The notes under the pieces were generated by a model. It was not told where the DNA came from. It ran no database searches and saw nothing but the letters and a program-made list of their open reading frames with translations. This document shows positions 9,593-38,100 of a DNA stretch of 64,000 nt, piece after piece. The translations under genes were made by a program, and so were the position numbers. How positions within the stretch are numbered: position 1 is the first letter of the stretch; each line of letters begins with the position of its first letter. Origin of the DNA: Hyphomicrobiales bacterium (GTDB lineage: Bacteria; Pseudomonadota; Alphaproteobacteria; Rhizobiales; Xanthobacteraceae); the NCBI GenBank assembly GCA_003169835.1, contig PNAI01000035.1, positions 1 through 64,000 on the forward strand, written 5' to 3'.

Positions 9593-9595
9593 ACC

Positions 9596-10072
9596 ATGGT
9601 GAGCGCGCCGCTTTCATCCTCTCGTCAGAACGCCGACAGCAAGGCAAAGCTTCGCCTTTGGATCAGGCTTCTGCGCGCAAGCCGGTTGATCGAAGCCAAT
9701 GTGCGCGCGCGTTTGAAATCGCAGTTCAAGGCGACGCTGCCGCGCTTCGACGTGATGGCGGCGCTCTATCGCAAGCGCGACGGCATGCTGATGAGCGAGA
9801 TTTCCCGCTTTCTCATGGTGTCGAATGGCAACGTCACCGGCATTGTCGATCGGCTTGTATTGGATCGGCTGGTGGTGCGATCGCAGCGCAACGGCGATCG
9901 CCGTACGTCGTTTATCAGCCTTACCGGCAAGGGCCGGAGCATGTTCGAGGCGATGGCGCGCGCGCATCAGGGTTGGATCGATGAATTGCTGGACGATGTG
10001 ACGATCAAAGACGCGACCGAACTTTCGGTGAAACTGAAATCTTTCCGCAGCAATTGGGAGGGCGAGGCATGA
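9596..10072 (+). CDS. MarR family transcriptional regulator
   Basis: A 158-residue winged-helix protein. The MarR core is visible: [19 protein letters not shown], the recognition helix [14 protein letters not shown], the wing [14 protein letters not shown] and a C-terminal dimerisation helix. It starts three bases after the monooxygenase stop and its stop overlaps the next gene (ATGA), so it is co-transcribed with the catabolic genes. MarR members in aryl-CoA pathways often release DNA on binding the CoA thioester; here the palindromes at 7220-7249 are the likely operator. Confidence 0.88.
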
Positions 10073-10881
10073 GCAAGAAATTTGAGCGCAATCCCAAGCA
10101 TTTTAATTGGCGGTTGGAAAAAGATATTGCCGTCATCCAGCTCAACCGGCCGGAGCGAAAAAATCCGCTGACGTTCGATTCCTATGCCGAGCTGCGCGAC
10201 ACTTTTCGCGATCTGAGATACGCCGACGACGTTCATGCGGTGGTGTTCCTGCCCAATGGCGGGAATTTCTGCTCGGGCGGCGATGTGAACGATATCATCG
10301 GGCCGCTGGTTGCGATGGACATGAAGGAGCTGCTGGCGTTCACCCGTATGACCGGGGACTTGGTCAAGGCCATGCTTCATTGCGGCAAGCCAATCATTTC
10401 CGCGGTCGATGGGGTGGCGGTCGGCGCCGGCGCGATCATTGCCATGGCTTCCGATTTGCGCATCGCGACGCCTGAGGCGCAGACGGCTTTCTTGTTCACG
10501 CGCGTTGGTCTTGCCGGTTGCGACATGGGCGCTTGCGCGATGCTCCCGCGCATCATTGGGCAGGGACGGGCGGCTGAGCTCCTCTACACCGGCCGTGCAA
10601 TGACCGCGCAGGAGGGTGAACGCTGGGGATTTTTCAATAGACTGGTTGCGGCCGATGCGCTGGAAAAAGAGGCGCTGGATTTGGCGCGCCGGATTGCGGC
10701 GGGTCCGAATTTTGCCCACGGCATTACCAAGACCCAGCTCAATCAGGAATGGTCGATGAGTCTTGAGCAGGCGATTGAAGCGGAAGCGCAGGCGCAGGCG
10801 ATCTGTATGCAGACGAAGGATTTTGAGCGCGCCTACCGCGCGTTTGTCGCCAAGGAAAAACCGGTGTTCGAGGGCAATTGA
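10069..10881 (+). CDS. Crotonase-fold protein lacking both hydratase glutamates
   Basis: A 270-residue crotonase/enoyl-CoA hydratase-family protein with the oxyanion-hole motif FCSGGDV near residue 70 and [15 protein letters not shown]. Aligning by eye with enoyl-CoA hydratase, the two catalytic Glu positions are Ile and Phe, while an Asp occurs in GLAGCDMGA, as in dienoyl-CoA isomerase-like members. It is therefore probably an isomerase, hydrolase or ring-opening lyase acting on the dearomatised CoA ester rather than a simple hydratase. It is coupled to marR by ATGA and to the next gene by TGATG. Confidence 0.83.
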
Positions 10882-12029
10882 TGTCCGACAAGAGCTTCCT
10901 CGCCTGGCCGTTCTTCGAGGACCGTCATCGCGTCCTCGCGAAAGACGTTGAGCGTTGGAGTGCGGCCAATCTTCCTGTCGCACACGGCGATGTGGATGCG
11001 GCCTGCCGCGAACTTGTCATGAAGCTCGGACGCGATGGCTGGCTTGATCACAGCGCGATCGATCCGGCTTCTCCGGGCAATCTGGATGTGCGGACGCTTT
11101 GCCTGATCCGGGAAACGCTCGCCCGGTACGATGGGCTTGCTGATTTCGCTTTCGCCATGCAGGGGCTCGGTGCGGGCGCCATCAGTCTTTTCGGGACGGG
11201 AGAGCAACGCCTATGGCTCAGGCGCACTCGGGCGGGCAAGGCCATCGCGGCGTTCGCGTTGTCGGAGCCAAAGTCTGGCTCCGACGTCGCGAATATGGAA
11301 ATGACGGCAACGCGCGACGGCGATCGCTACATCCTTGATGGCGAGAAGACGTGGATATCGAATGGCGGCATTGCGGACTTCTATGTGGTTTTCGCGCGCA
11401 CCGGGGAAGCGCCGGGCGCCAAAGGAATTTCCGCTTTTCTGGTGCCCGCCGATTTGAAGGGATTCTCGATCGCCGAGCGCATCGATGTCATTGCGCCTCA
11501 TCCGTTGGCGCGGATCAAATTCAGCAATGCGCGAATTCCAGGATCCGCGATGATCGGGGCGCCGGGAGATGGCTTCAAGATCGCCATGTCGGTGCTCGAC
11601 GTCTTTCGCTCGACCGTGGGTGCGGCAGCGCTCGGTTTTGCCCGGCGGGCCTTAGATGAATCACTTGCGCGCGTACGCACGCGCGAATTGTTTGGTGCGC
11701 CAATGTCCGAATTGCAGATGGTGCAAGCGCAAATCGCCGAAATGGCGGTCGATGTCGATGCGGCGGCATTGCTCGTTTATCGCGCCGCCTGGACCAAGGA
11801 CATGGGCGTGCCGCGCGTCACGCGTGAGGCGGCGATGGCAAAGCTTTTTGCAACCGACCGGGCGCAGGACGTGATCGACAAAGCCGTTCAGCTTCACGGC
11901 GGCGACGGCGTGCGCCAAGGGCGCATCATGGAAAGGCTCTATCGCGAAATTCGGGCGCTGCGGATTTATGAGGGCGCGTCCGAGGTGCAAAAAGTCGTCA
12001 TTGCAAGACAGATGCTAGCGGGGGGATGA
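10881..12029 (+). CDS. Acyl-CoA dehydrogenase
   Basis: A 382-residue flavoprotein of the acyl-CoA dehydrogenase family: [14 protein letters not shown] in the middle domain, [19 protein letters not shown], then the C-terminal [10 protein letters not shown] and [19 protein letters not shown]. The Glu in YEGAS is at the catalytic-base position of medium-chain-type enzymes. The start at 10881 overlaps the preceding stop (TGATG), and the end overlaps the CoA-ligase start (ATGA). In the operon it would dehydrogenate an alicyclic or ring-opened CoA intermediate and pass electrons to ETF. Homologous genes are known in anthraniloyl-CoA clusters. Confidence 0.9.
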
Positions 12030-13654
12030 CCATGCTTGGGCGCAGCGCGCATCTCGATACATTCAGCCGTGACAAGCTTCCGCCCTTCGACCAGTGGCCG
12101 GAGTTTCCGCTTGATGGATTTGAATATCCAGAGAGTTTGAATGCCGCGGTTGAGTTGACAGATCGATTGGTCGCGCGCGGGTTCGGCGATCGTGTTGCGT
12201 TGATCGGAAACGGCCGCCAGCGCACCTACAAGGAACTCTCCGACTGGACCAATCGGATCGCGCGGGCGTTGGTGGAAGATTACGGCATCAAGCCGGGCAA
12301 CCGCGTCCTGATCCGCTCGGCCAACAATCCGGCGATGGTGGCCTGCTGGCTTGCCGCGACCAAGGCGGGCGCGGTTGTGGTCAACACCATGCCGATGCTT
12401 CGCTCCATTGAACTCAGCAAGATTGTCGATAAGGCGGAGATCAGCCTGGCACTCTGCGACACACGGCTGATGGACGAACTTGTAGCCTGTGCCAAGGACA
12501 GCCGGTTCCTCAAGAAAGTGATCGGTTTCGATGGCACCGCCAATCACGACGCAGAGCTTGATCGTGTTGCGCTGAGCAAGCCCGTGACCTTCAAGGCGGT
12601 CGAGACTGGGCGCGATGACGTGGCGCTCTTGGGATTCACCTCCGGCACCACGGGCGAGCCCAAGGCGACCATGCATTTCCATCGCGATCTGCTGATCATT
12701 GCCGATGGTTATGCCAAGGAAATCCTGCAGGTGATGCCCGAGGACATATTCGTCGGCTCGCCGCCGCTCGCATTCACTTTCGGCCTCGGCGGGCTTGCGA
12801 TTTTTCCATTGCGATTTGGGGCGACGGCGACGCTGCTGGAAAATGCTTCACCAGCGAATATGATCGAAATCATCGAGACCTATAAGGCGACCATCGTTTT
12901 TACCGCGCCCACGGCCTATCGGGTGATGCTTGCGGCGATGGACGGCGGGGCAAATTTGTCTTCGGTGAGGATGGCGGTATCGGCCGGTGAAACATTGCCA
13001 GCGCCGGTTTTCAGGGATTGGATCAAGAAAACGGGAAAACCGATTCTCGACGGCATCGGCGCGACCGAGATGCTGCATATTTTCATCTCCAATCGGCTGC
13101 AAGATGCTGCGCCGGCTTCGACGGGCCGTCCGGTCGCCGGGTATCAAGCCAAGATTGTCGATGACGACATGAAGGAGAAGCCGCGCGGTGAAGTCGGCCG
13201 TCTTGCGGTGCGCGGCCCGACCGGTTGCCGCTATCTCGCGGACGATCGGCAAAAGAAATACGTCAGCGGCGGCTGGAATCTGACGGGGGATGCATTCATT
13301 CAAGATGCCGATGGCTATTTCCATTTCGCGGCCCGCACGGACGATATGATTATTTCCTCCGGCTACAACATTGCCGGGCCGGAAGTTGAGGCGGCGCTGC
13401 TGTCGCATTCGGACGTGAAAGAATGCGCGGTCATCGGCGTGCCGGATGAAGAGCGCGGGCAGATCGTGGAAGCGCATGTGGTGTTGAAGGAGGGCGTCGC
13501 CGCCGACTCAAATACTACGCGCAAGCTGCAGGATCACGTCAAGGCAACGATCGCGCCGTTCAAATACCCCCGATCGGTGAAATTCGCCGACGCGTTGCCG
13601 AAAACGCAGACCGGCAAGATTCAACGCTTCCGGTTGAAGCAGAAAGCGCAATGA
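12026..13654 (+). CDS. Aryl-CoA ligase, probably 2-aminobenzoate/benzoate-CoA ligase
   Basis: A 542-residue adenylate-forming enzyme. Motifs in order: [15 protein letters not shown] (phosphate loop, near 205), [12 protein letters not shown] (A5-like), [22 protein letters not shown] (A7/A8 hinge), and the C-terminal catalytic lysine region [12 protein letters not shown]. The [11 protein letters not shown] segment is typical of benzoate- and aminobenzoate-CoA ligases, which make the aryl-CoA substrate of the monooxygenase. It overlaps the dehydrogenase gene by four bases. Anthranilate is the likely substrate from context; benzoate or salicylate cannot be excluded. Confidence 0.88.
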
Positions 13655-21585: not shown

Positions 21586-22611
21586 CTAGCGCAAATTCGG
21601 AACGATCTTTTTGATGGTTTCGATCATTGCCGGTGGAGTGGCATAAAGTTCCGCCACGAGTCGTTCCAAGTGCTGCGGCGCACGATAGGTCATATCGAGC
21701 TTCATCCCGGCAGCTTCTGCGAGCAGTTCCGGATTCTTGGCGGCCTCCGCGATCGCCTTGCGCATGAGGTCCACGCGATCCTTCGGCACATCGGGCGGGA
21801 AGAGATAAGGCCGGCCGAATTCGGTGCTGGAGAACACAAAGCGCATCATCTGGCGTTGCTCAGTGGTTTTCGCGTAATCGTAAATGGAGGGGGCGTCTGG
21901 AATTTCCGGCATGGCCGTTACCTCCGCGCGCAGGATGACGCGCAGTTTGCCCTCTCGAAACAACCGCTCATGGGTTCGAAATTGACCGAGCGAAGCACAG
22001 GCCCCCTGGACTTCGCCGCGCTCCATCGCAAGTACGATATCTTGCGCGCCGCGATACCCTTCGATGAGGCGAAATTTGGTGCCGAGCACGCGGTTAATCA
22101 CAGTCGGGATGATGCTGGTCGCGGAGCCGACGCCCACGCTCCCGACGATGAGTTCCTGCGTGAATAGGTCGGCGGGAGTCTTTATCGCGGATGTCGACGT
22201 TGCGACGCAGATCCGACCGGGAAACGAGGTTGCGCCGAGCCAGTTGAAGCGGCGCGGATCAGCCTCGATGTTCGGTAGGCCCATGATGGCTTGGCTCGGA
22301 AGATTGCGCGAGATCGAGCCCATGACGGTTCCGTCGCGTGCTGCCCGGACGTAGAGATAATTCGCGGAGCCAAGAGCTGCTGCCTGCGGCATGTTCTGGA
22401 CAATGATCGTAGGTTGGCCGGGCAGGTATTTCGGTAAATATCGGGCGAGCAAACGCGCGCCGATGTCGTAATCATTGCCGGCTTCGTAGCCGACAACCAT
22501 CTGGATTTGCTTGTTTTTGTAAAAATCCTGCGCGCCTTGCGCGTGCGTTTCGGACAAAGCTGCCAAAATAAAACCAAGCGATACTGCTACTCGTGACGCG
22601 ACCGATTTCAT
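21586..22611 (-). CDS. Bug-type (TctC family) periplasmic solute-binding protein
   Basis: A 341-residue exported binding protein with a Sec signal (LGFILAALSETHAQG) and Bug-family features: FYKNKQIQMVVGYEAGNDYDIGARLLARYL, where canonical Bug proteins have GGxxD, and PTIIVQNMP. Bug proteins capture carboxylates for tripartite TctAB-type transporters or act as sensors. No tctA/tctB genes are in the window. It is the last gene of a minus-strand unit with the lyase and LeuCD-like genes (six-base gap to the lyase), so a branched dicarboxylate is the likely ligand, by context only. Confidence 0.88.
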   Translation of the reverse strand: MKSVASRVAVSLGFILAALSETHAQGAQDFYKNKQIQMVVGYEAGNDYDIGARLLARYLPKYLPGQPTIIVQNMPQAAALGSANYLYVRAARDGTVMGSISRNLPSQAIMGLPNIEADPRRFNWLGATSFPGRICVATSTSAIKTPADLFTQELIVGSVGVGSATSIIPTVINRVLGTKFRLIEGYRGAQDIVLAMERGEVQGACASLGQFRTHERLFREGKLRVILRAEVTAMPEIPDAPSIYDYAKTTEQRQMMRFVFSSTEFGRPYLFPPDVPKDRVDLMRKAIAEAAKNPELLAEAAGMKLDMTYRAPQHLERLVAELYATPPAMIETIKKIVPNLR

Positions 22612-22617
22612 GGCGGC

Positions 22618-23517
22618 CTATTCGGCTGCGCGTTTTTGCACGAGCGCAGCAGCGGCCTGGTCGTAGTTCTCCTCGCGTGCCAAGAGCGGTTTTAATCCGA
22701 CGAGACCGTAGTAGTCGTCGAGTGGGATGAGATGTTCCTGGCAGGGCGCGAGCGAATTCTTGCTCTTGAGCAGCCGCAGCACGGTGCGCACGGAATTTGC
22801 CGCAGCGAACAGTGCGATCGATGGGAAAGTGGCGGCAACCACGCCGGCCGCTTCGAGTTCTTCCAGGCTGCGTGCCTTGGGGCCAGCGGCCTGCGAAAGT
22901 GTCGCCATGTGAGGGCCGGTAATTTCGCGCAGCGCGCGTTTGATTTCCGGAATCGTGTCGAGCCCCATGGGCTTGGCCATGTCGGCGCCGGCTTCCATGA
23001 ACAATTGGCAGCGTGCGATCGCTGAATCGACGCCCTCGACGCTAAAGGCATCGGTGCGAGCGGCGATAAACAGGTCAGGATCGCGCCGCGCGTCGAGCGC
23101 GGCGTTGAGTTTTGCTAGCATCTGCTCGACGGGCACGATCTGTTTGCCCGGCAGATAACCGCAACGGTTTGGAAAAACCTGGTCGCTGATGAAAAAGCCA
23201 GCGACGCCGGCCGCCTCAAAGGCGCGCACCATCTGTCGTACGTTGTTGACGCCGCCAAAACCGGTGTCGGCATCGGCATAGACGGGGATTTCGACGGCGG
23301 CGCAGATGCGTGCGTAGTGGTCGGCGAAATCGCGCATGTTGGATTGGCCCATGTCGGCCTGCGCCAGCATGCTGCCAACCGCGGCGTAGCCGCCGGCGAC
23401 GATGCCCTCAAAGCCCTCGGTTTCGATGATGCGGGCGGAAAGCGCGTCATAGGCGCCCGGCATTAGCACAAGACGCTTGCCGGCCATGATCGCTTTGAAT
23501 TTCTTTCTGACGTTCAT
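22618..23517 (-). CDS. Isocitrate lyase/PEP mutase-family lyase
   Basis: A 299-residue TIM-barrel lyase: LVLMPGAYDALSARIIE at the N-terminus, VYADADTGFGG with metal-binding Asp residues, and LFIAARTDAF. The active-site loop reads FPNRCGYLPGKQIV near residue 120. The Cys of lyases (KKCGH in isocitrate lyase) is kept, which argues against PEP mutase, but His is replaced by Tyr. Relatives include methylisocitrate lyase, 2,3-dimethylmalate lyase and oxaloacetate hydrolase. Beside a LeuCD-type hydro-lyase the best guess is cleavage of a methyl-substituted malate to pyruvate plus a short acid. Substrate unproven. Confidence 0.85.
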   Translation of the reverse strand: MNVRKKFKAIMAGKRLVLMPGAYDALSARIIETEGFEGIVAGGYAAVGSMLAQADMGQSNMRDFADHYARICAAVEIPVYADADTGFGGVNNVRQMVRAFEAAGVAGFFISDQVFPNRCGYLPGKQIVPVEQMLAKLNAALDARRDPDLFIAARTDAFSVEGVDSAIARCQLFMEAGADMAKPMGLDTIPEIKRALREITGPHMATLSQAAGPKARSLEELEAAGVVAATFPSIALFAAANSVRTVLRLLKSKNSLAPCQEHLIPLDDYYGLVGLKPLLAREENYDQAAAALVQKRAAE

Positions 23518-23529
23518 CTCGTGCTCCCG

Positions 23530-24162
23530 TTACGAAGTGCGGCTGTCAGTCGCCGTCTGCAACCAAGGCTGGTCGGCGGCCATGCGTTTTTCCCAATTCA
23601 AAATCTCGCTCGTATGTTTGAGCGTGAGGCCGATGTCGTCGAGGCCTTCGAGCAAGCGTGTACGGTCGGCGGCCGGAATATCGAAGGTGATGTCGGGTCC
23701 GCTCGGTCCGCTGATGCGCTGGGTTTGCAGATCGACCGTGAATGGTGCCGCGCCGTTCACCGTCATAATGCGCGCAATGAATGCGTCGGCGTCTTGAGGC
23801 TTAAGCACCACGGGAAGCAATCCGTTTTGTAGGCAGTTCTCGCGGTAGATGTCGGCAAAGCTCTTCGCCACGATGACGCGGATGTTGTTTGCCAGCATGC
23901 CCCATACGGCGGCCTCGCGCGAGGAACCGGCACCGAAATTTTGCCCCGTCACCAGGATGCCGGGATTGCGGAATTGCGACTGGTTGAGCACGAAGTCGGG
24001 ATTGTCGCTTCCGTCGTCACGCAGGCGGGCGCGCATGAACAATAGTTTCTTGTAATCCGGTTTGAGCGCGCGCATTGCCTGCACCGGCGCGATCTGATCG
24101 GTGTTGATGTCATCGTTGAGCATCGGAACGGCGATGCCGGTATGGGTCGAGAACGGTTGCAT
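23530..24162 (-). CDS. leuD: LeuD-like small subunit of a (di)methylmaleate/isopropylmalate-type hydro-lyase
   Basis: A 210-residue swivel-domain protein of the LeuD family: IAVPMLNDDINTDQIAPVQAM near the N-terminus and the substrate-binding loop NFGAGSSREAAVWGM. It begins one base inside the large-subunit stop (TGATG) and is followed by the lyase gene 12 bases on, so the three are co-transcribed. No leuA or leuB is near, and the linked lyase and Bug genes suggest a catabolic paralog rather than leucine biosynthesis. The symbol indicates homology only. Confidence 0.85.
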   Translation of the reverse strand: MQPFSTHTGIAVPMLNDDINTDQIAPVQAMRALKPDYKKLLFMRARLRDDGSDNPDFVLNQSQFRNPGILVTGQNFGAGSSREAAVWGMLANNIRVIVAKSFADIYRENCLQNGLLPVVLKPQDADAFIARIMTVNGAAPFTVDLQTQRISGPSGPDITFDIPAADRTRLLEGLDDIGLTLKHTSEILNWEKRMAADQPWLQTATDSRTS

Positions 24163-25571
24163 CAGGCTTGCCCCAACCGCAATTGCCGCACGTCGGCAAT
24201 GCGTCCGGCAATGGCTGTCGCGGCAGCGGTCTCAGGACTTGCAAGATGGGTGCGCACCTTTGGGCCCTGTCGATTTTCGAAGTTTCGGTTGGTGGTCGAG
24301 ACGCAGCGCTCGCCTGGATCGCCGCGATCGCCGTTGCCACCGGCGCACATGGAGCAACCGGACTCGCCCCAGAAGAAGCCCGCATCGCGGAAGACGCGAT
24401 CGAGGCCGGCGGCTTCCGCGTCGCGTTTCACCTTGGTTGAGCCGGGCACGACCATAGCAACGACGCCTTCTGCAACTTTACGCCCGCGCACCACATTGGC
24501 GGCGGCATGCAGATCCGGTAGGCGACTGTTGGTGCACGAGCCGATAAACACGCGATTGACCGGCATGCCGACAAGCGCGGTGCCGGGCTGCAAGCCCATG
24601 TAGGCAAGCGCGCTTTCAACTGCTCCGCGTCGGCTTTGATCGACGCTGGACGGATCGGGCACGCGGCCGGAGATGCCGAGCACCTGGCTCGGATCGGTGC
24701 CCCAGGTGATTTGCGGCTCAAGTGTGCTGCAATCGAGCACGTGTTCGCGGTCGAATTGCGCCTCCGCGTCGGTCTTGAGCGTGCGCCAATGCGTCGTTGC
24801 GCGGTCCCACATCGCGCCTTTCGGTGCGTAAGGCCGTCCCGCGATCCACGCAATGCTTGCGTCGTCCGGAGCCACGAAGCCGGAGCGGCCGCCCATTTCG
24901 ATATTGAGATTACACAGTGTCATGCGCTGCTCGATCGGCATGGCGCGCACGGCCGAGCCGGCATATTCCACCACGTGCCCGCGCGCGCCGGAAACGCCAA
25001 GCTCGGCAATGATGCGGAGCGCCACATCCTTTGCGCTGACGTGGGCTCCGAGCACGCCTTCAAGCCGGATCAGCATGCTTTTTGGTCGCTTGAGCGCCAT
25101 CACTTGCGTCGCGAGGATGTGCGCGAGTTCGGTCGTGCCGCAACCAAAGGCAAGCGCGCCAAGGCCGCCGACGGTGCTTGCATGACTATCCGGAACGGCG
25201 TGGGTTGCGCCCGGCAGCACCATGCCGAGTTCGGGCGCGACCACGTGCGAAATACCCTGCTCGGGATCATCGATGTCGAACAGCTTGATGTTGTTGCGGC
25301 GGCTGCCTTCGCGCATGGCCTTGATGAAGGCCGCGCCGGAGGGATTGGTGGAATCGTTGCGGCCGGGTTTGGTCGCAACGGTGTGGTCTTGCATCGAGAA
25401 GGTGAGGTCGGGTCTGCGCACCGGTCTGTGCTGGGTCTCCAACTGTTCGAAGGCGTGGGGAGCGTGCAACTCGTGCAGTGCGTGCCGGTCGATGTAGATT
25501 AGGTCGCGGCCGTCGATGCGCTGCGCGACCAGATGGGCGGCCCAAATTTTTTCGAACAAAGTGTGGGGCAT
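24162..25571 (-). CDS. leuC: LeuC-like large subunit of an aconitase-superfamily hydro-lyase
   Basis: A 469-residue aconitase-superfamily subunit. The three cysteines for a 4Fe-4S cluster are visible in GSCTNSRLPDL and SGCSMCAGGN. The N-terminus LFEKIWAAHLVAQR and VPDSHASTVGGLGALAFGCG follow the LeuC pattern. The start at 25571 matches the usual LeuC N-terminus; a longer frame to 25736 adds Arg/Pro-rich sequence and is unlikely. With the small subunit it would isomerise or hydrate a substituted maleate/malate. Dimethylmaleate hydratase and citraconate hydratase are paralogs of the same type; the lyase neighbour fits them better than isopropylmalate. Confidence 0.87.
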   Translation of the reverse strand: MPHTLFEKIWAAHLVAQRIDGRDLIYIDRHALHELHAPHAFEQLETQHRPVRRPDLTFSMQDHTVATKPGRNDSTNPSGAAFIKAMREGSRRNNIKLFDIDDPEQGISHVVAPELGMVLPGATHAVPDSHASTVGGLGALAFGCGTTELAHILATQVMALKRPKSMLIRLEGVLGAHVSAKDVALRIIAELGVSGARGHVVEYAGSAVRAMPIEQRMTLCNLNIEMGGRSGFVAPDDASIAWIAGRPYAPKGAMWDRATTHWRTLKTDAEAQFDREHVLDCSTLEPQITWGTDPSQVLGISGRVPDPSSVDQSRRGAVESALAYMGLQPGTALVGMPVNRVFIGSCTNSRLPDLHAAANVVRGRKVAEGVVAMVVPGSTKVKRDAEAAGLDRVFRDAGFFWGESGCSMCAGGNGDRGDPGERCVSTTNRNFENRQGPKVRTHLASPETAAATAIAGRIADVRQLRLGQA

Positions 25572-25668: not shown

Positions 25669-26259
25669 CTAGTGCGACGCGGCGTAATGTGCGAGTGCCA
25701 CAAGGTCGGCATCTGAGAGCCCAGCGACAGCGCCACTCATGAGAGTGTCCGCCCCCTCGCGTTTGCTGTCGCGGAATTCGGTCAGAGCCTGAGTTAGATA
25801 ATCGACGCGCTGTTTAGCAATACGCGGAACCTGCTGATCTCCAGTCAAGGTTGGCTTGTGGCAAGATCCGCATTTCTTTTGCGCCGCGATTTCAGTACCG
25901 CGCTTGACCAATGCGGCATCGATCGGTTCGCCGCTCGGCTTGGGCGGAAGTTTTGAGAAATGCCCCGACAGCGCATCCAGGTCGCTTTCTTTCAAATCTT
26001 TCACGAATGGCGCCATTGCTTCAACTTTGCGTACGCCTTCGCGCATCAGGAACAGTTGGTTCAGCACGAAGAACGCCGGTTGCCCTGCAAGGGACGGAAT
26101 ATTCGGCAGTGGAGAGTTGCCGTCAGCGCCGTGACAACCGGCGCATTGCACAATGCGGTCCTGGACCGACATCGCTTGGCTCAAAGCCTGGCCGGCGCAC
26201 AAAATGACGGCCGCCAATCCGAAGATCAGCGGCCGCCATATATTCGAAACGACGATCAT
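25669..26259 (-). CDS. Diheme c-type cytochrome (cytochrome c4-like)
   Basis: A 196-residue exported cytochrome with a signal peptide (PLIFGLAAVILCAGQALSQA) and two heme sites, CAGCH near residue 39 and CGSCH near 132, each in a class I cytochrome c domain with a plausible distal Met (MREG, MSGA). It follows the PQQ dehydrogenase gene by 11 bases, so it is probably the direct electron acceptor of that enzyme, passing electrons to a terminal oxidase. The 98-base gap to leuC suggests the unit may end here. Confidence 0.9.
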   Translation of the reverse strand: MIVVSNIWRPLIFGLAAVILCAGQALSQAMSVQDRIVQCAGCHGADGNSPLPNIPSLAGQPAFFVLNQLFLMREGVRKVEAMAPFVKDLKESDLDALSGHFSKLPPKPSGEPIDAALVKRGTEIAAQKKCGSCHKPTLTGDQQVPRIAKQRVDYLTQALTEFRDSKREGADTLMSGAVAGLSDADLVALAHYAASH

Positions 26260-26270
26260 CGCGTCTCTAT

Positions 26271-27524
26271 CTAATTGTTTGCCACTTTCCCGTTGTATGT
26301 GATGCGATAGATCGCGCCGCTTGTTTCGTCTGAAACGAGCAAGGAGCCGTCCGCCATCGGAAGCACATAAGTTGGCCGGCCATAGAATTCGTTTGTCTTC
26401 TCGTTCAGTAAGCCGGTCAAGAAGGGCTCAATCCTGGCGGTTCCGCCCGAGACCCGCGCGATCACGACATCGTAGCCGTACTTCTTCTCCCGGTTCCACG
26501 AACCATGGCGGGCGATGAAGGCGACGTTTTGGTAGGAGTTCGGGAACATCTTGCCGGTGTAGAATTTAATTCCTAGCGCGGCGGCATGCGGACCGAGCAG
26601 GGCTGCGGGTAGGATCACGCCGGCGCAGGGGTTCGGGCGTTTGACGTCCGGATCTGGAATGCCCATGGCGTGGCAGTAAGGGAAACCGTAGCTGGCGCCT
26701 TCTTGGGCTTTTGTGACGCGGTTGAGCTCATCTTCCGGACCTGCGTTGCCCGCCCAGTCGCGGCCGTTGTCGGTGAACCACAACTCTTTCGTCACCGGAT
26801 GCCAGTCGAAGCCGACCGTATTGCGGATTCCGCGCGCGACGATTTCCATGCCGGTGCCGTCTGCATTGTAGCGCCGGATCTGGCCGTGAATGCCGGGATT
26901 GGTTTCGCAGATGTTGCAGTTCGATCCGACCTGCACGTACATTTTTCCGTCCGGTCCGAATGCCACGTACTTCCAATTATGGTGCACGGTATCAGGCAGA
27001 TTGTACGCGGCCGTAAGTTCGACCGGTGTACCCGGATTGTCGAGCTTGTCCTCGATGTTGTCGTAACGGAACACCTTGTTGATGGCGAACACGTAGAGCG
27101 CGCCATCCTTGAATGCGAGGCCGTTGGGTTGCGTCAGGCCTTGCACGAGGACTTTGGCCTCGCGCTTGCCGTCTTTTTCGGTGATGGCATAGACACGGCC
27201 GATCACGCGCGTGCCCATGAACATCGTGCCCTTGGTGCCCATCACCATGGAGCGCCCGCCAGGATGTCCGGACGACCAGACATCGGCCTTGAACCCAGGT
27301 GGAAGCTTGATCTTGTCGAGCGGCAGCTTGTCGACCGGTGTCACGGTCGGCGGCGTTGCGTGCGGCTTGAGACCCTCATCCTGTTTACTGGCAGCCGGAT
27401 TTGATTTGTCCATCGGACTAAATCCGGGCGGCGATTGAGCTCCGGCAGGCAATGCTGCAGCAATGAGAATAGCAATAGCACCTGCGATGAGCAGGCCGTG
27501 GCGGCACGACATCAAACTGGACAT
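26271..27524 (-). CDS. Sorbosone/glucose dehydrogenase-family PQQ enzyme
   Basis: A 417-residue exported beta-propeller protein (signal HGLLIAGAIAILIAAALPAGAQS). Family motifs: KLPPGFKADVWSSGHPGGRSM, NIEDKLDNPG, HHNWKYVAFGPDGKMYVQVG, FDWHPVTKELWFTDNGRDW and ARHGSWNREKKYGYDVV near the end. These mark the L-sorbosone/soluble aldose dehydrogenase group, which oxidises sugars or aldehydes in the periplasm with PQQ and calcium. The downstream diheme cytochrome and the nearby pqq genes fit. Start at 27524 has GGAGG; an ATG at 27536 is an alternative. The actual substrate is unknown. Confidence 0.86.
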   Translation of the reverse strand: MSSLMSCRHGLLIAGAIAILIAAALPAGAQSPPGFSPMDKSNPAASKQDEGLKPHATPPTVTPVDKLPLDKIKLPPGFKADVWSSGHPGGRSMVMGTKGTMFMGTRVIGRVYAITEKDGKREAKVLVQGLTQPNGLAFKDGALYVFAINKVFRYDNIEDKLDNPGTPVELTAAYNLPDTVHHNWKYVAFGPDGKMYVQVGSNCNICETNPGIHGQIRRYNADGTGMEIVARGIRNTVGFDWHPVTKELWFTDNGRDWAGNAGPEDELNRVTKAQEGASYGFPYCHAMGIPDPDVKRPNPCAGVILPAALLGPHAAALGIKFYTGKMFPNSYQNVAFIARHGSWNREKKYGYDVVIARVSGGTARIEPFLTGLLNEKTNEFYGRPTYVLPMADGSLLVSDETSGAIYRITYNGKVANN

Positions 27525-27650
27525 ATTATCCTCCATTGTCCGTTAGTTTTTTTCCGGTTGCACCGGGTACTCGTTCTTGGCGTGCAGTGTGGGACATTTC
27601 ACCCCCGACGCGCAATTGGGATTCGATGAGTTGGCGGTGAAATCAGCCAG

Positions 27651-28739
27651 TCACATGCGCCGGTAGTCGTATGGTGCGGTATCCCGTTCTGCAGCCAGCG
27701 TTTCGACCCGCGCATGATTTGGCGAAAGATGACAGACCGGATCGGTCGCTGCTGCATCGCCTGTAAGTGCATAGGCTTGGCAACGACAGCCGCCAAAATC
27801 CTCATCTCGCCGAGGGCAGCTCGCACACGGCTCCTGCATCCAAGCTGTGCCGCGAAAGGCGTTGAAGGCAGGCGAATTCTCCCAAATGTCGGTGAGTGAA
27901 TGTTCACGCACCGACCAAAATTCCAAACCGGGAATGGATTGCGCCGCGTGGCAGGGCAGTACCAAGCCGTCGGGCGCGACATTGAGCGAGCGATGGCCCC
28001 AGCCGCCGACGCATGGTTTCGGGAAGCGCGCGTAGTAATCGGGGATTACCGCGTCGATGACTATCTTGCCGTGGAGACGCCGGCGCAAATCTTCCACCAC
28101 ATTCGCCGCCTGCTGGACCTGTTCGCGCGTCGGCATGAGTGTCGCGCGGTTCTTCAGCGCCCAGCCATAATATTGCGCGTGCGCGATTTCGACGCGGCTT
28201 GCGCCAAGCGCGAGCGCAAGATCGACCAATTCGGAAATGCGTTCGATGTTGGCGCGGTGAATGACCGCGTTCACGGTAAGCGGCATCTTCAATCGCACCA
28301 CTTCTGCAGCGAGCGAACGTTTTTTGGCGTATGCCCCCTCGTAGCCCGCAATATGATCTGCCGATTTCTCTTCGCTGTCCTGAATGGAGATCTGCACGTG
28401 ATCAAGTCCGGCGTCGGCGAGCGCGGCAAGCGTCTTGTTGGTTATTCCTACGGCGGACGTAATCAAATTGGTGTAGAGCCCCGCATCGCGCGCTGCCGTC
28501 GTGATCTCGACGAGATCGCGCCGCGCCCCGGGCTCTCCGCCGGAGAGATGCACTTGCAGCACGCCAAGTGAAGCGGCTTCGCGAAACACGCGCGCCCATG
28601 TGGCGGTGTCGAGTTCGTGCGCGCGCGGTTCGAGCGCGAGGGGATTTGAGCAATAGGGACAACCGAGCGGGCAGCGGTGCGTGAGTTCGGCAAGAAGTCC
28701 GAGTGGCTTATGGAGATTGCCTGCGCCGTTTTGCGTCAC
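27651..28739 (-). CDS. pqqE: PQQ biosynthesis radical SAM enzyme PqqE
   Basis: A 362-residue radical SAM/SPASM protein. The SAM cluster site is CPLGCPYC (Cys23, Cys27, Cys30), followed by [14 protein letters not shown]. The C-terminal SPASM region holds [14 protein letters not shown] and the cluster [21 protein letters not shown]. PqqE joins the Glu and Tyr side chains of PqqA with PqqD as chaperone, the first committed step to PQQ. It starts with GTG one base after the pqqD stop, so pqqD and pqqE are coupled. It lies about 125 bases upstream of the PQQ dehydrogenase gene, same strand. Confidence 0.95.
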
Positions 28740-28740
28740 G

Positions 28741-29028
28741 TCAAATCTCCAGGAGCTTCTTGTCCGCGAGTGTGCGCAACAGCGCCGTTACATCGGCAAG
28801 AATACGCTCGCGCGGTGCGGAGTAAGTACTCGCGAGGTCGTCGACGATAGCCGCGATCGTCGCCTCGCCGGTGCAGCGTTTGACGATTTCGACCGCGATC
28901 GGGTCGGTTTTGAACACGCGCTCAGGCGCGAGTAGCACCCAGCCGCCTTGCGCCTCATTGTGCACAAGCCGCACGCCGCGTCCCAATAGCGGGCGCGTCT
29001 CGCTTGATATAATATCGTTTTCAGCCAC
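28741..29028 (-). CDS. pqqD: PQQ biosynthesis peptide chaperone PqqD
   Basis: A small PqqD/RRE-fold protein of about 95 residues: [27 protein letters not shown], then [20 protein letters not shown] and a C-terminal helix [13 protein letters not shown]. PqqD binds PqqA and delivers it to PqqE. I chose the GTG at 29028 (AGAGG about 10 bases upstream), which gives the usual length; an in-frame start at 29061 would add 11 basic residues. The gene is divergent from a Bug gene over a 97-base gap, so pqqDE is physically cut off from pqqABC. Confidence 0.9.
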
Positions 29029-29125
29029 GGAACGTGCACCTCTATGCCGCGTTTCACGCAATCGCGGAGCGTGTTATACGACACTTGAAGGCAAGAAATC
29101 CTGGGTTGAAAGAGCGGAGAGTGCA

Positions 29126-30100
29126 ATGAGTCTGCAGCAGACATGTTTGAGATTTTGGTGCGCGGCGGCGATCACAGTGTCCGTGAATTGTTCCGCGCAA
29201 GCGCAGGACTACCCCACCAAGCCTGTCACCTTCATCACCCCCGCTGCCGCCGGCAACAGCCCGGATGTGGTTACGCGCGTGGTGGCCGATCGCCTTACAC
29301 AGTTGTGGAAGCAGCAGATCGTGGTGCTCAATCGTCCGGGCGCCGGCGGGCTCATCGCTGCGCAGGCGGCGGCCGGTGTCGAGAAGGACGGCTACACCCT
29401 CTACATGACTCAGGCGTCCACCTTTACCGTTCTGCCAGTTACGCAGGAAGGCAAAATGCCAGTCGATCTGCAAAAGGCCTTCGTGCCGATCGGTATGGTC
29501 GGCGAGCAGCCGATTGGAATGGCGGTTAACAAAGACGTGCCCGCGAACTCCGTTGCGGAGTTGATCGCGCTCATCAACAAGACGCAGGGCGGGATGCTGT
29601 TCGGCGCGACCAATCGCGGCGGCCAGTCGCATTTGACGGGCGAATTGTTTCGCGAGCGCGCCAAAGTGAACCTGTCGTTCGTGCACGCGGCGGGCGCTGC
29701 GGCATCGCTCAATGACGTTATTGCCGGGCGTATTCCAATTGTGTTCGAGGGCCTCGCTGGACTTGCGCCCGGAACCGAGGGTGGCGGGATCAGGCTTCTC
29801 GGCATTGCGGCGCAGAAGCGCCTGCCCAATTTACCGAAGCTTCCAGCCATCAATGAAACCATCCCAGGCGTGGTGTCGAGCGGCTGGATCGTGCTGATGG
29901 CGCCGGCGGGAGCGCCTGAAAACATCATCCGGAAGGTCAACGAGGACCTGCGCAAGGTCGTGGCGATGCCAGACGTTATCGAGAAGCTCCAAGTGCTCGG
30001 TACTTACTCGCGCGACCTGACGCCCGCGCAAACTGGCGAATTCATGCGGAGCGAAGAGCAACTGTGGTGGCCGATCGTGCGGCAGATCAACAAGCAATAA
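29126..30100 (+). CDS. Bug-type solute-binding protein inserted in the pqq cluster
   Basis: A 324-residue Bug/TctC-family periplasmic protein with signal peptide (CAAAITVSVNCSAQAQD) and the family segments YPTKPVTFITPAAAGNSPDVVTR, VLNRPGAGGLIAAQAA and VHAAGAAASLNDVIAGRI. The start at 29126 has GCGGAGAG upstream; a frame reaching 28871 is an extension antisense to pqqD. It runs against the pqq genes and ends 15 bases from the pqqC stop. Ligand unknown. Insertion of a plus-strand binding-protein gene between pqqC and pqqD is unusual. Confidence 0.88.
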   Translation: MSLQQTCLRFWCAAAITVSVNCSAQAQDYPTKPVTFITPAAAGNSPDVVTRVVADRLTQLWKQQIVVLNRPGAGGLIAAQAAAGVEKDGYTLYMTQASTFTVLPVTQEGKMPVDLQKAFVPIGMVGEQPIGMAVNKDVPANSVAELIALINKTQGGMLFGATNRGGQSHLTGELFRERAKVNLSFVHAAGAAASLNDVIAGRIPIVFEGLAGLAPGTEGGGIRLLGIAAQKRLPNLPKLPAINETIPGVVSSGWIVLMAPAGAPENIIRKVNEDLRKVVAMPDVIEKLQVLGTYSRDLTPAQTGEFMRSEEQLWWPIVRQINKQ

Positions 30101-30115
30101 GCGCTGCGCGCTCGA

Positions 30116-30844
30116 TCAACCGGCCGGCACGAACGCGCCGGGCGGTATTTCGTTCGGCGCCACGTAGGCGTGGTAGAGCGCGTCACACATGGCCCATAGT
30201 ACGCTGCATTTGAATTCGAGTGCGGCCAGCACCTGCTGCTGCTGCTCGGGTGTGCGGGCAATAGTCTTGCAATAATTTAGCGCAAAATCGGCGTCGCGCG
30301 CGGCCTGCGGCGGGCGCTTGTCGAAATAGGCAAGCGTATCGCGGGTCACGAAGGGATAGCTCGCGAGCATGCCCTCGACCCGCTCGCTGATGATCTGAGG
30401 CGAAAACATTTCGGTCAGCGACGAAGCAATCGCTTCGAGCAAGGTTTTCTCGCGCACGAAACGCACATAGGCATCCACCGCAAAACGCGTCGCAGGCAAG
30501 AGGCCGTGCAACGAGCTGACATAGTCTCGGTCGAGCCCGAGCCCATCGGTCAGCCGCAGCCAGCGCGCGATGCCGCCGTCGTCCCCCTGTTCACCGTCGT
30601 GATCGACCAGACGCGAACGCCATTCGCGCCGGATCGCAGAATCGTCGCAGCGCGCGATCAGACTCGCGTCCTTGATTGGAATCATCGCCTGATAATAGTA
30701 ACGGTTGAGTGCCCAGGCTTGGACTTGGTTCTTGGTGCATTTTCCGCTGTGCAGGAGATGATGGAACGGGTGCAGCCGGTGATAACGGCGCGCGCCGATA
30801 TCGCGCAGCGCGGATTCGAGTTCTGTAGGGCTCAGCAGCTTCAC
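30116..30844 (-). CDS. pqqC: PQQ synthase PqqC
   Basis: A 242-residue heme-oxygenase-fold oxidase: HPFHHLLHSGKCTKNQVQAW, ALNRYYYQAMIPIKDASLI, then RLVDHDG and GLGLDRDYVSSL, all typical of PqqC. It carries out the final ring closure and eight-electron oxidation to PQQ. It starts with a GTG overlapping the pqqB stop (GTGA), confirming the order pqqABC. The stop is only 15 bases from the end of the opposing Bug gene. Confidence 0.95.
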   Translation of the reverse strand: MKLLSPTELESALRDIGARRYHRLHPFHHLLHSGKCTKNQVQAWALNRYYYQAMIPIKDASLIARCDDSAIRREWRSRLVDHDGEQGDDGGIARWLRLTDGLGLDRDYVSSLHGLLPATRFAVDAYVRFVREKTLLEAIASSLTEMFSPQIISERVEGMLASYPFVTRDTLAYFDKRPPQAARDADFALNYCKTIARTPEQQQQVLAALEFKCSVLWAMCDALYHAYVAPNEIPPGAFVPAG

Positions 30845-31743
30845 AGCTCGATCCTCATGCCATCCTCGGCGATCCCCCAGCCGGCCGTCTCTACTTTACG
30901 ACGTTGCGGCGAGCCGTCGATAAGGATGGGGTTGGTATTGTTGATGTGGATATAGATGCGGCGCGCTTTCACGTCCGCCAGCGCCGTAAGCGAGCCGTCT
31001 TCGCCGTCGATCGGCATGTGACCCATGCGGCGGCCGGACTTTGTGCCGGTTCCGGTCACGATCATTTCGTCGTCGGTGAACAGGGTGCCGTCAAAAAAAA
31101 CAATATCCGCGCGCTTGAGCCGTTCTGCCAGGGCCGGTGTCACTGCGGTCGCGCCTGGCACGTAGAGCAGTCGGCCGCCTCCGGCGGAAAGCTCGATGCC
31201 GACATTGGCGCCGTCTTCGCGGGCAAGGTCCGGTTTTTCATCTTCGAGATAGAGCGGCACCTTGCCGGGTACTGTGAACAGCTCGGCGCTGATGCCGCCG
31301 GGCAGTGTGAAGGGCTTGCCCGTGGCAATGGTCTGACGGATGACCACATCGGGAGCCAGCACGTTGAACATGGGATTGGCCGCGATCGCGGAGAGGGTCT
31401 CGGCAGTCGCGCAGAGTGTGAAGGGTTGCCGCTCGCGCAGCGTCAGAAGTCCGGCCGTTTGATCGACCTCCGCTCCCGATAGCACGATGGAAGCGATTGG
31501 GCTCTCGCGCAGTTCGCGCGGGTGCAGATCGGGCGTTGCCTGTAACTGTGCACGCAAGTCCGGTGAGGCGTTGAGGAGTACCCAATGGCGGCCATCGGCA
31601 CTTACGGCGAGGCTCGCCTGCGTGCGCGGCTTGACGCGAGGATCACCCGCCCAGGCGAGGCGGCATACCGGACAAAAGCAATTCCACTGCGGAAAACCGC
31701 CGCCCGCTGCTGCACCAAGAATGATAGCGGTTAGCCGCCCCAT
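30841..31743 (-). CDS. pqqB: PQQ biosynthesis protein PqqB
   Basis: A 300-residue metallo-beta-lactamase-fold protein: ILGAAAGGGFPQWNCFCPVC at the N-terminus carries the CxCxxC structural zinc site, followed by VLLNASPDLRAQL and HINNTNPIL near the end. PqqB is thought to be an iron-dependent hydroxylase acting on the cross-linked Glu-Tyr intermediate. It lies 31 bases downstream of pqqA and overlaps pqqC by four bases. Confidence 0.95.
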   Translation of the reverse strand: MGRLTAIILGAAAGGGFPQWNCFCPVCRLAWAGDPRVKPRTQASLAVSADGRHWVLLNASPDLRAQLQATPDLHPRELRESPIASIVLSGAEVDQTAGLLTLRERQPFTLCATAETLSAIAANPMFNVLAPDVVIRQTIATGKPFTLPGGISAELFTVPGKVPLYLEDEKPDLAREDGANVGIELSAGGGRLLYVPGATAVTPALAERLKRADIVFFDGTLFTDDEMIVTGTGTKSGRRMGHMPIDGEDGSLTALADVKARRIYIHINNTNPILIDGSPQRRKVETAGWGIAEDGMRIEL

Positions 31744-33858: not shown

Positions 33859-34779
33859 TCAATCGGAGTTGGGGTCAACGAGCGGCTTCGGCTTGGAAAA
33901 TTTGTCTTCGCGCGCCTTGCCGTAAAGCTGTTCGCGCTCGAGAAATGCGCGCTCAGCTGTGTAGAACTCACGCAGAAACATTGCGGTGTCGTTTGGCGGT
34001 ACCGGCGTCGCCCACTCGATCTTGCGACAAATTTTTTCGCAGACTTCGTTGAGCACGCGCGTTGAATCGGCTGAATCGGGCCGGCGTAAAAGCTCTTCTA
34101 GAACCTGGAGCTCAAATGCACCGTAAGCGCGCAGTTGCTGTTCGGTGAAAATGAACTTCGCAGTTTTTTCCACGAGGTCGCTCAACAGCGCGCGCTTGGG
34201 CAGAGAGATCAACATTGTCCCGGCGATCAGATCGCCGCCGCGCATGCGGTCGCGATTGATCAGCGGTAAGGCGGAGAAGAACAGCAGCCACAGGGCGATC
34301 GAGAGTTGCTCCCAGTCAACGAAGCCTTGCGCGGTCTTACCCCAGGTCATGAGGATGCCGAACGGGATGAAGGCCTCGACCTCGCGTGTGAGATTGCGCG
34401 CGATGACGGCGGATGGTTGCAGCGGTCCGCCGCTGCGATCGATCACACGTAGGCCGACCAGGCGTTTGCCAGGAGTCGCGCCGCGCCATGCCAACTCGAA
34501 ATAAACGAAATACATGTTGCGCACGATGAAGCCGATGAAGAGTGCGATCGAAACAGCGATGCGATTACCGCCGGTGTAACCGACGACGGAAAAGATCGGG
34601 ATGTAGATCGCGAGCGTCAAGAGCAACCAGATGAACAAATCGATCACGAACGCCGTGACCCGCGCCCCGTGATCCGCAAGGCTGACCGTTATCGGTACGC
34701 CTTCCGGCGTGACGATCTGGCGCCGCTCTTGGCGCCCGCCTTCGAGAAATTGCGAGGTACGCTCATGTACGAGGGTCAT
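33859..34779 (-). CDS. RDD family membrane protein
   Basis: A 306-residue protein with the RDD domain: GARVTAFVIDLFIWLLLTLAIY (first helix with the Arg-Asp pair), a middle helix region and the GATPGKRLVGLRVIDRSGG loop. The C-terminal 130 residues are soluble and charged (KFIFTEQQLRAYGAFELQVLEELL). It starts with ATGA overlapping the SpoIIM-like gene and ends the operon with DUF58 and MoxR genes. RDD proteins are sometimes transporters, but in this setting they are thought to act with the MoxR complex. Function unknown. Confidence 0.85.
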   Translation of the reverse strand: MTLVHERTSQFLEGGRQERRQIVTPEGVPITVSLADHGARVTAFVIDLFIWLLLTLAIYIPIFSVVGYTGGNRIAVSIALFIGFIVRNMYFVYFELAWRGATPGKRLVGLRVIDRSGGPLQPSAVIARNLTREVEAFIPFGILMTWGKTAQGFVDWEQLSIALWLLFFSALPLINRDRMRGGDLIAGTMLISLPKRALLSDLVEKTAKFIFTEQQLRAYGAFELQVLEELLRRPDSADSTRVLNEVCEKICRKIEWATPVPPNDTAMFLREFYTAERAFLEREQLYGKAREDKFSKPKPLVDPNSD

Positions 34780-35837
34780 CGCCGCTCGGTCCTTCCGCTC
34801 AGGCAGAAATAAGCGAGCCACAGAGCGCCAATGCCGAAACCAATTGCGAACCGCAACGGTGTAGATTGCACGAGCTGGCGGAAGCCGCCTTCCAGAATCG
34901 CGGCGACGAACAGCATGAGAATGCCGCCGACTGCCATCTGGGCGGCGAGACGCCCGTGCATGGCGAGATTCTCGACCCGTGAATAGAGTCCCGGAAACAA
35001 TATTTTTTCCGCAATGACCAGGCCGCCGGCGGCGAACATGATCAGGGCGCTCAATTCGGTGGCGCCGTGGATGGACAGCCAGCCGAGAAATTCGATCGTC
35101 AGGTCGCGATTGTAATGCAAGGCGATGAAGGCACCGAGGGTCAATCCTTGATAGATCGTCAGCATGATGGTGGGAATGCCGACTGCGAGGCCCAGGCCGA
35201 AGGTCATAATACCGATCAGCGAGTTGTGGCTGAACAGCACGTTGGCGAATACGCCGAAAGCTTCGACCGCACCCGGCCAGGGCGCGAAGATTTCCTTGTT
35301 CAAGAGATCCGCCCGCGTGCTTGCCGGCCCGCGCGCCCCGCTGAGTCCCGATGGCACGAACGCCGAGAACCAGGCTTCATCCTGCAATGTGAGCATCAGT
35401 CCGGCCAGCGTGCCGACCAACAAGGCCAGTGCTGCAATGAGAATATGCCAGCGTGCGGTGCGCACCGCGTGTGGTAAGTCGCGACGGAAGAATTCGCGCA
35501 AGCCGGTCAGCGCGCTGACGCGCGGCCCGTATACCGCCAGAAACGCGCGCAACGCGAGATTTTCAAGATAGAGCAACAGGTTTCGATCAAGCGCGATGGT
35601 GCGCGCCACCGAGAGCGACGATAGCGCGGCGCGATAAAGGATGGGCAGGCGCTGCAGTTCGTCGAGAGTGAGCGAGCGCACGCCTTGGCGTTCCACTACG
35701 GCAACCAGGCGTTCAAGCTCAAGCCAGCCTTCTTCGCGGCCTTTGCGGAATTGGCTGCTCTTGAGGACAAGCTCCGGTTTTCCTGCGATCGACGTGTGCG
35801 GAATTGGAAGATCGATTTGGGGCACGCTCGGCGTCAT
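34776..35837 (-). CDS. SpoIIM-type (stage II sporulation protein M family) membrane protein
   Basis: A 353-residue protein with a soluble N-terminal third (PELVLKSSQFRKGREEGWLELERLV) and about five to six hydrophobic segments. The family signature SIHGATELSALIMFAAGGLVIAEK is clear. Such proteins occur in non-sporulating bacteria beside MoxR ATPases and DUF58 proteins, where they are believed to be part of a membrane complex. It overlaps both neighbours by four bases (ATGA). The name reflects fold family only; no sporulation is implied. Confidence 0.86.
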   Translation of the reverse strand: MTPSVPQIDLPIPHTSIAGKPELVLKSSQFRKGREEGWLELERLVAVVERQGVRSLTLDELQRLPILYRAALSSLSVARTIALDRNLLLYLENLALRAFLAVYGPRVSALTGLREFFRRDLPHAVRTARWHILIAALALLVGTLAGLMLTLQDEAWFSAFVPSGLSGARGPASTRADLLNKEIFAPWPGAVEAFGVFANVLFSHNSLIGIMTFGLGLAVGIPTIMLTIYQGLTLGAFIALHYNRDLTIEFLGWLSIHGATELSALIMFAAGGLVIAEKILFPGLYSRVENLAMHGRLAAQMAVGGILMLFVAAILEGGFRQLVQSTPLRFAIGFGIGALWLAYFCLSGRTERR

Positions 35838-37143
35838 ATCAGGCCGCGTTGTTTGATCAGAAGGTAGCGATTGATGAGTGCGACCGGCAAACCGCTGCTG
35901 GGCACGTCAAGGCAATGCACGCCGAGCCGCTCAAGCCGCTCGAATACGATACTGCGTTCGCGCAAGAAATCGTGAGCGATGACGGCCTGCGCCACGTCGG
36001 CGAATTGCGTGGGCGGTGCATCGACCGCATGCCGGAGCACAGAGCCGCGCTGGGTGACAAAAACGACGACATGCTTGCCGACGATCCGTTGCATGCTCTC
36101 GATGAGAAGCTCTGCCGTGACGGTGTCGACGAAATCGGTGAACAGGATGACGAGGGTGCGACGTTTGAGGCGCACATTGAGTTCGGCCAATCCAAGTGTG
36201 AAATTGGTCTCCTGGTGATGGTAGTCGAGTTCGGCGGTGGCGCGCTGGATGCGCCCGAAACTCGACATTCCACGCAAGGGGCCGAGAAATTGCCGCACCA
36301 CCGCGTCGAAGCCATAGGTGCCGACCAGATCGCCGCCTTGCAGCGAGACCCAAGCCAGCACCAAAGCGGAATTGATCGCGTGATCGAGCCGCGTTAATCC
36401 GTCAACCGGCTCGAGCATAAGGTAGCCGGTATCGAATGCCATCACCACGTGGTGATTGCGTTCGGTGCGGAATTCCTTGCATACAAGTTTGTGATGGCGT
36501 GCCGAATGTTTCCAATCGATGTGCCGGCTGTCGAGCCCAGGCACGTATTCGCGGAGCGCATCGAATTCAGTGCCTTCGCCCTTTTGACGCTGAGACTTGA
36601 TACCAAAAATCGATTCTTGCGCGAAAAATTGTAGGGCCGCGCCATGCACGCCATGCACGTTTGGCAGCACGTCTATCGTGCGATCGACGCTGACGCGTTT
36701 GGTGAACTCGACCAGCGACAAAGGGCTGCGCCAGCGGATCCAAATCTGCTCGACTGTTATACGGCCGCGGCGCCGCGGTGCGATAGGCAGCGCGATTTGG
36801 GCATGTTGTCCGGCCGGAACTTCGCCTGAGACAATCTCGGGCGGTTCGATGTCGCCGCGCACGTCCGCAATCAGCTCGAAGCGAATTGGCCGACGATAAC
36901 GCTTGGCACCGATGGTGACCGAGATCGAGCCGCGTTCGCCGATGTAAAGCCGATCCGGGGTGGCGGCCCACATCTCGAGCAGGCGCGGCGAGAAGGCGAG
37001 CAGGGTGTCCATTCCGATGGTGACGAGCACCAACGCGGCGTAGTCGAGCGAGAGCATCCAAAGGCTTGAATCGTAGATCACTACGAGCAGCGAAAGCGGA
37101 ATCCCGCAGACAAATATCAGAACGGCTCTCGCAGTCGGCCGGA

Positions 37144-37147
<4 letters not shown>
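35834..37147 (-). CDS. DUF58 domain-containing protein
   Basis: A 437-residue protein with two N-terminal membrane helices and a C-terminal DUF58/vWA-like domain. The signature [20 protein letters not shown] is present, followed by [14 protein letters not shown], a MIDAS-like DxG segment. DUF58 proteins pair with MoxR ATPases as probable metal-dependent adaptors in maturation or stress complexes. Overlapping stops and starts (ATGA) with the MoxR and SpoIIM genes show co-translation. Confidence 0.88.

Positions 37148-38100
<953 letters not shown>

Follow-up and report, generated by a model that had tools for sequence, protein, structure and literature searches.

What do a LeuC- and a LeuD-type protein do when their genes lie beside a lyase gene of the isocitrate lyase/phosphoenolpyruvate mutase (ICL/PEP-mutase) superfamily and a gene for a periplasmic binding protein? 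We addressed this question for a locus at 21586-25571 of a 64,000-nucleotide stretch from the genome of a soil alphaproteobacterium of the Hyphomicrobiales (contig PNAI01000035.1; the window, below, is this whole stretch), which a preliminary description had grouped into one unit of a LeuCD-type hydro-lyase, a PEP-mutase-family lyase and a Bug-type binding protein. That grouping holds as a tight minus-strand operon. At a probability of about 0.6, we propose that the operon is an aerobic catabolic module, in which a hydro-lyase and a C-C lyase would act in turn on an imported branched di- or tricarboxylate.

Organization and conservation of the operon

The first gene encodes a LeuC-type [4Fe-4S] hydro-lyase large subunit of a paralogue clade (24162-25571, minus strand; Pfam Aconitase, 497 bits; NCBIfam PRK12466, 670 bits), with an ATG at 25571 that is the same start as in its homologues. 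It is followed on the same strand by a LeuD-type small subunit with a replaced substrate-recognition loop (23530-24162; Aconitase_C), an ICL/PEP-mutase-superfamily lyase with an altered metal/substrate site (22618-23517; Pfam PEP_mutase, 149 bits) and a predicted Bug/TctC-type periplasmic binding protein (21586-22611; TctC, 26.7 bits, just below the cut-off of 27). Because leuC and leuD overlap at TGATG and the next gaps measure 12 nt (leuD to lyase) and 6 nt (lyase to Bug gene), the four genes likely share one transcript; a promoter and terminator scan of the unit found no promoter scoring above chance. The unit lacks leuA and leuB, as had been stated, and leuA (on another contig) and a citramalate-synthase-like gene are encoded elsewhere in the genome, along with three leuB-like genes that all fall under the leuB cut-off.

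Genes for LeuC, LeuD and the lyase occur in this order at about 21 Xanthobacteraceae and Beijerinckiaceae loci. Because these loci had been fetched through LeuC, the search was repeated starting from the lyase: 21 of 297 genomes of the family held a match, and paralogous LeuD and/or LeuC genes adjoined the lyase in every one of the 17 other genomes that had a fetched locus and a lyase of 78-87% identity, two of these loci having about 1.3 kb intervening. Lyases at 48% identity or less, fetched likewise, had no LeuCD paralogue adjoining. The arrangement is not a product of chance, and the unit is under purifying selection (dN/dS, the ratio of nonsynonymous to synonymous substitution rates, about 0.08-0.17 against the nearest relatives). 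The lyase type is also rare: 8 of 397 genomes matched in an order-wide sample searched at a looser cut-off, and a phylum-wide sample yielded, besides the window, a single 40% relative. In one relative (G470; L162:7680-8759), leuD and the lyase gene are separated by an open reading frame (ORF) that resembles, by eye, an IS110-type transposase.

Separation from leucine biosynthesis

A more conventional explanation would make LeuCD the organism's leucine-biosynthetic pair, placed beside the lyase by accident. Both proteins pass the corresponding NCBIfam cut-offs (TIGR00170, 561.8 versus 560.25 bits; TIGR00171, 154.9 versus 116.25 bits), and family searches identified the window LeuC as the sole aconitase-family protein of its own assembly. 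The preliminary description had held that a sole leuCD would overturn a catabolic reading; the single copy was indeed found, but it is best explained by the state of the assembly, a draft of 60 contigs at 82.6% completeness, in which searches with family profiles also failed to recover aconitase and rplS. In L121, L122 and L124, three relatives studied closely, rplS adjoins the leucine leuC. Moreover, when ten well-sequenced relatives carrying the paralogue at 78-84% identity were searched whole, every one encoded at least one further LeuC (about 47-52% identity).

Phylogeny, proposed earlier as a comparison with biosynthetic LeuC, pointed the same way. In a tree of 105 rows, the window LeuC fell into a 25-row clade (support 100), apart from a 19-row leucine clade linked to rplS (support 99). 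The window pair resembles the 3-isopropylmalate dehydratase LeuCD in subunit architecture, Fe-S cysteines, GSSRE motif and family cut-offs passed, but differs from it in clade, recognition loop and the regions around DSHT and WREPGCSMCLAMN. On copy number in relatives, phylogeny and the rebuilt substrate pocket described below, we rejected a leucine-biosynthetic role, which we regard as extremely improbable; judged by sequence, the window pair is not a leucine enzyme. The earlier proposal of a catabolic unit of hydro-lyase and lyase, separate from leucine biosynthesis and tied to carboxylate uptake, is supported.

Active sites of the hydro-lyase and the lyase

Changes in LeuCD surround a retained catalytic core. 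In LeuC the Fe-S cysteines are kept, CGDSHTSTHG is changed to VPDSHASTVG, and WREPGCSMCLAMN is changed to WGESGCSMCAGGN; in LeuD, GSSRE is kept within GAGSSREAAVW, which stands in place of GCGSSREHAPW. The LeuD recognition loop IIPKQFLKTIKRTGLG is replaced by IAPVQAMRALKPDY, which is one residue shorter than the leucine type, aligns with an uncertainty of one residue and contains an invariant Arg. This substrate-recognition loop sets specificity in isopropylmalate isomerase and homoaconitase (PMC7308503), and the Arg could accommodate an additional carboxylate, as opposed to a methyl group. LeuD scores below the LeuD/DmdB family cut-off (TIGR02087, 61.6 versus 108.95 bits), and LeuC scores below that of hacA_fam (TIGR01343, 307.6 versus 385.7 bits).

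The lyase belongs to the ICL/PEP-mutase superfamily. Its AlphaFold model (mean predicted local distance difference test score, pLDDT, 93.5) matched superfamily members at Z scores of 28-37, with PrpB as the closest solved fold (Z 36.8) and 2,3-dimethylmalate lyase at 35.0 (3fa3). Numbered as in Escherichia coli PrpB, the core residues D58, D85, D87, C123 and R158 are kept, including all three metal-site Asp residues and the general-acid Cys. Outside this core, the window protein carries S at E115, M at E188 and T at N210, and nearly all members of its clade show E115 replaced by S, T or G, KRCGH by NRCGY, FPEA by KPMG (with loss of E188) and N210 by T. The lyase of the window thus shares its fold and its Cys/Arg/Asp core with PrpB and 2,3-dimethylmalate lyase and differs from both in these motifs, and it misses the PrpB equivalog cut-off (TIGR02317, 200.2 versus 354.4 bits). 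Altered E115 and E188 positions are common to the lyases of two further genomes (G195 and G028), and the classical residues are retained in lyases of 43-46% identity that lack LeuCD.

Quantum mechanics/molecular mechanics calculations on isocitrate lyase place the core at Asp108, Cys191 and Arg228 and find Glu182 unfavourable as proton acceptor (PMC7609661). Because E115 of PrpB is the equivalent of Glu182, C-C cleavage by the window lyase is still plausible.

Import context and cousin loci on plasmids

The Bug protein gave weak matches in the Protein Data Bank to binding proteins of tripartite tricarboxylate transporters (TTT; E values 1.6e-5 to 0.005). Relatives supply further links to import: TctB, TctA and a TctC-type gene adjoin the trio of LeuC, LeuD and lyase genes in G007 (TctA and TctB checked against Pfam), an arrangement shared by G442 and G468, and the trio of G195 is flanked by TctA, a Bug-type protein and an MmgE/PrpD enzyme. 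The altered lyase of G028 (L167:1630-8655) has TctCBA as neighbours, along with a LysR-type gene and genes for an ornithine-cyclodeaminase-family protein and an NMT1-like protein. Orthologues of the Bug gene stand beside the trio in Rhodoplanes (L042), G470 (L162) and several Beijerinckiaceae, and the source assembly itself holds six TctA genes.

Comparable arrangements of more distant cousins recur on plasmids from cultured strains; a search of plasmids found no LeuC at 60% identity or more. A Roseomonas haemaphysalidis plasmid encodes, in a row, a GntR regulator, a Bug protein, LeuC (57%), LeuD (44%), a lyase (48%), a second Bug protein, 3-hydroxy-3-methylglutaryl-coenzyme A (HMG-CoA) lyase and a CoA transferase; its lyase is intermediate in type: it retains E115, has CGY and carries Q in place of E188. 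Plasmids of Mesorhizobium sp. B2-1-1 and Azospirillum brasilense combine LeuCD with an ICL/PEP-mutase protein and an ATP-binding cassette (ABC) importer. Several of the LeuCD genes at the Roseomonas, Mesorhizobium and Azospirillum loci are labelled as leucine biosynthesis.

Proposed pathway and alternative explanations

We infer both reactions, the order of the steps, the uptake step and the catabolic role of the unit from this combined evidence. In the periplasm, the acid would be bound by the Bug protein, which would pass it to a TctAB membrane component encoded elsewhere. The LeuCD paralogue would then hydrate or isomerise it, converting an R-maleate or 2-R-malate into a 3-R-malate or a methyl-substituted analogue, and the lyase would cleave the hydroxy-acid between C2 and C3. 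The products would be a small 2-oxoacid, either glyoxylate or pyruvate, and a carboxylic acid able to enter central metabolism. The same logic underlies the pairings of aconitase with isocitrate lyase and of dimethylmaleate hydratase with dimethylmalate lyase. In addition, we tentatively suggest, at somewhat short of even odds, that this may be a CoA-independent aerobic route for a branched di- or tricarboxylate new to LeuCD-type enzymes, that the metal site of the lyase may have been rewired to work without both glutamates, and that LeuCD and lyase may have changed substrate together.

Several observations weigh against the proposed module. The loss of two superfamily-conserved glutamates and Asn210 means that the lyase chemistry could differ. 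The window Bug gene has no TctAB alongside, no regulator gene was found adjoining the window unit, and many soil relatives carry the trio with no Bug gene nearby, so that the Bug protein is best regarded as accessory. The G028 locus has a lyase of the same type with TctABC and without the LeuCD paralogue, and LeuCD is therefore not obligatory for this lyase type. Finally, the plasmid loci (L172, L173, L175 and that of Bradyrhizobium) were hand-picked from LeuC matches and show recurrence, not a rate; one of the four examined, the Bradyrhizobium plasmid, carries a citrate-lyase-family gene and has no superfamily lyase annotated beside LeuC.

The substrates named in the preliminary description correspond to an alternative in which dimethylmaleate/dimethylmalate or citraconate/methylmalate is broken down, LeuCD hydrating an alkylmaleate and the lyase yielding pyruvate and propionate (or acetate). 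The enzyme pairing is as in the system of DmdAB (dimethylmaleate hydratase) and 2,3-dimethylmalate lyase, a pair of anaerobic nicotinate fermentation that likewise joins a two-subunit aconitase-family hydro-lyase to an ICL/PEP-mutase-superfamily lyase, and in fold the lyase comes nearest to PrpB, dimethylmalate lyase and petal death protein. Work by Hopper (in 1971) and Liu (in 2015), to go by the titles, reportedly provides a precedent for aerobic alkylmaleate hydration and cleavage. The gentisate route can yield maleates, and a salicylyl-CoA 5-hydroxylase gene lies 12 kb away, but in relatives no salicylyl-CoA or gentisate genes turned up next to the trio, and we keep this link only as a lead. 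The enzymes themselves argue against such substrates: both deviate from the residues of dimethylmalate/methylisocitrate lyase and of isopropylmalate/citramalate isomerase, with LeuD and LeuC under the LeuD/DmdB and hacA_fam cut-offs and the lyase, devoid of E115, E188 and N210, at 200 bits where the PrpB family requires 354. Unlike the DmdAB system, the window unit is also transporter-linked and found in presumed aerobes. We therefore rejected identity with DmdAB or PrpB on the missed family cut-offs, describe the unit as working like these enzymes rather than being them, and consider the named substrates unlikely.

Alternatively, the substrate may be a tricarboxylate resembling aconitate, methylaconitate or homoaconitate, with the LeuD loop Arg binding the extra carboxylate and the lyase releasing a dicarboxylate. 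This would suit the invariant Arg, which lies within the very region that sets specificity in isopropylmalate isomerase and homoaconitase (PMC7308503), and the linkage to TTT-type transporters; as the loop could be aligned one residue off and TTT systems import many compounds, we hold this alternative doubtful. A further explanation leaves the hydro-lyase in place and lets the lyase homologue act on the LeuCD product as a hydrolase, as a decarboxylase or through some other activity of the PEP-mutase superfamily. The altered E115, E188 and N210 positions would accord with such a change, as would the annotation of a related Roseomonas protein as oxaloacetate decarboxylase, but R158, the general-acid Cys and the three Asp residues of the metal site are all retained, which makes it rather improbable, and we continue to favour C-C cleavage within the hydro-lyase and lyase module.

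Relation to known systems and annotation

Recruitment of a LeuCD-type enzyme to catabolism in an aerobe has a parallel, likened here by description, in HbzIJ, the maleate hydratase of the hydrolytic gentisate route; we know of no ICL/PEP-mutase lyase gene tied to HbzIJ. A gene cluster of Cupriavidus necator resembles the window unit in serving aerobic catabolism of branched C5-dicarboxylates and in having a TTT binding protein nearby; it differs in that itaconate and methylsuccinate are degraded via CoA esters and (S)-citramalyl-CoA lyase, with no LeuCD described (PMC12290011). A literature search that covered few subscription papers found no paper on a LeuCD-lyase module of the present kind.

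Because the paralogues pass family cut-offs and their plasmid cousins carry leucine labels beside lyases and importers, these proteins are likely misannotated as leucine enzymes. Once the substrate is identified, this annotation would be corrected, and the LeuCD-lyase-importer arrangement that recurs in Alphaproteobacteria would gain a function. It would also become clear how an enzyme of the isocitrate lyase type manages without two active-site glutamates that are otherwise conserved. The existence of cultured relatives makes the module directly testable.

Neighbouring genes in the window

Upstream of the operon on the minus strand lie genes for a diheme cytochrome c (25669-26259; Cytochrom_C), with no match in the relatives' loci, and a glucose/sorbosone-dehydrogenase-like protein (26271-27536; GSDH), not conserved beside the trio; both fall outside the conserved unit. 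Together (25669-27536), beside pqqE, they possibly form a dehydrogenase pair dependent on pyrroloquinoline quinone (PQQ). The region 27651-31743 holds pqqB, pqqC, a pqqD-like ORF recognized by eye (28741-29061) and pqqE, and a plus-strand Bug gene sits between pqqC and the pqqD-like ORF. We considered a role for the operon tied to the PQQ genes, the GSDH-like protein or the cytochrome c and discarded it, as none of them travels with the trio.

Farther away, an aromatic-CoA cluster at 7301-13654, 12 kb from the unit, comprises genes for a bifunctional salicylyl-CoA 5-hydroxylase (PRK08255, 1290 bits), an acyl-CoA dehydrogenase and benzoate-CoA-ligase-like proteins. On the other side, 33859-39304 carries a cluster of RDD, SpoIIM, DUF58, MoxR-type ATPase and DUF4350 genes.

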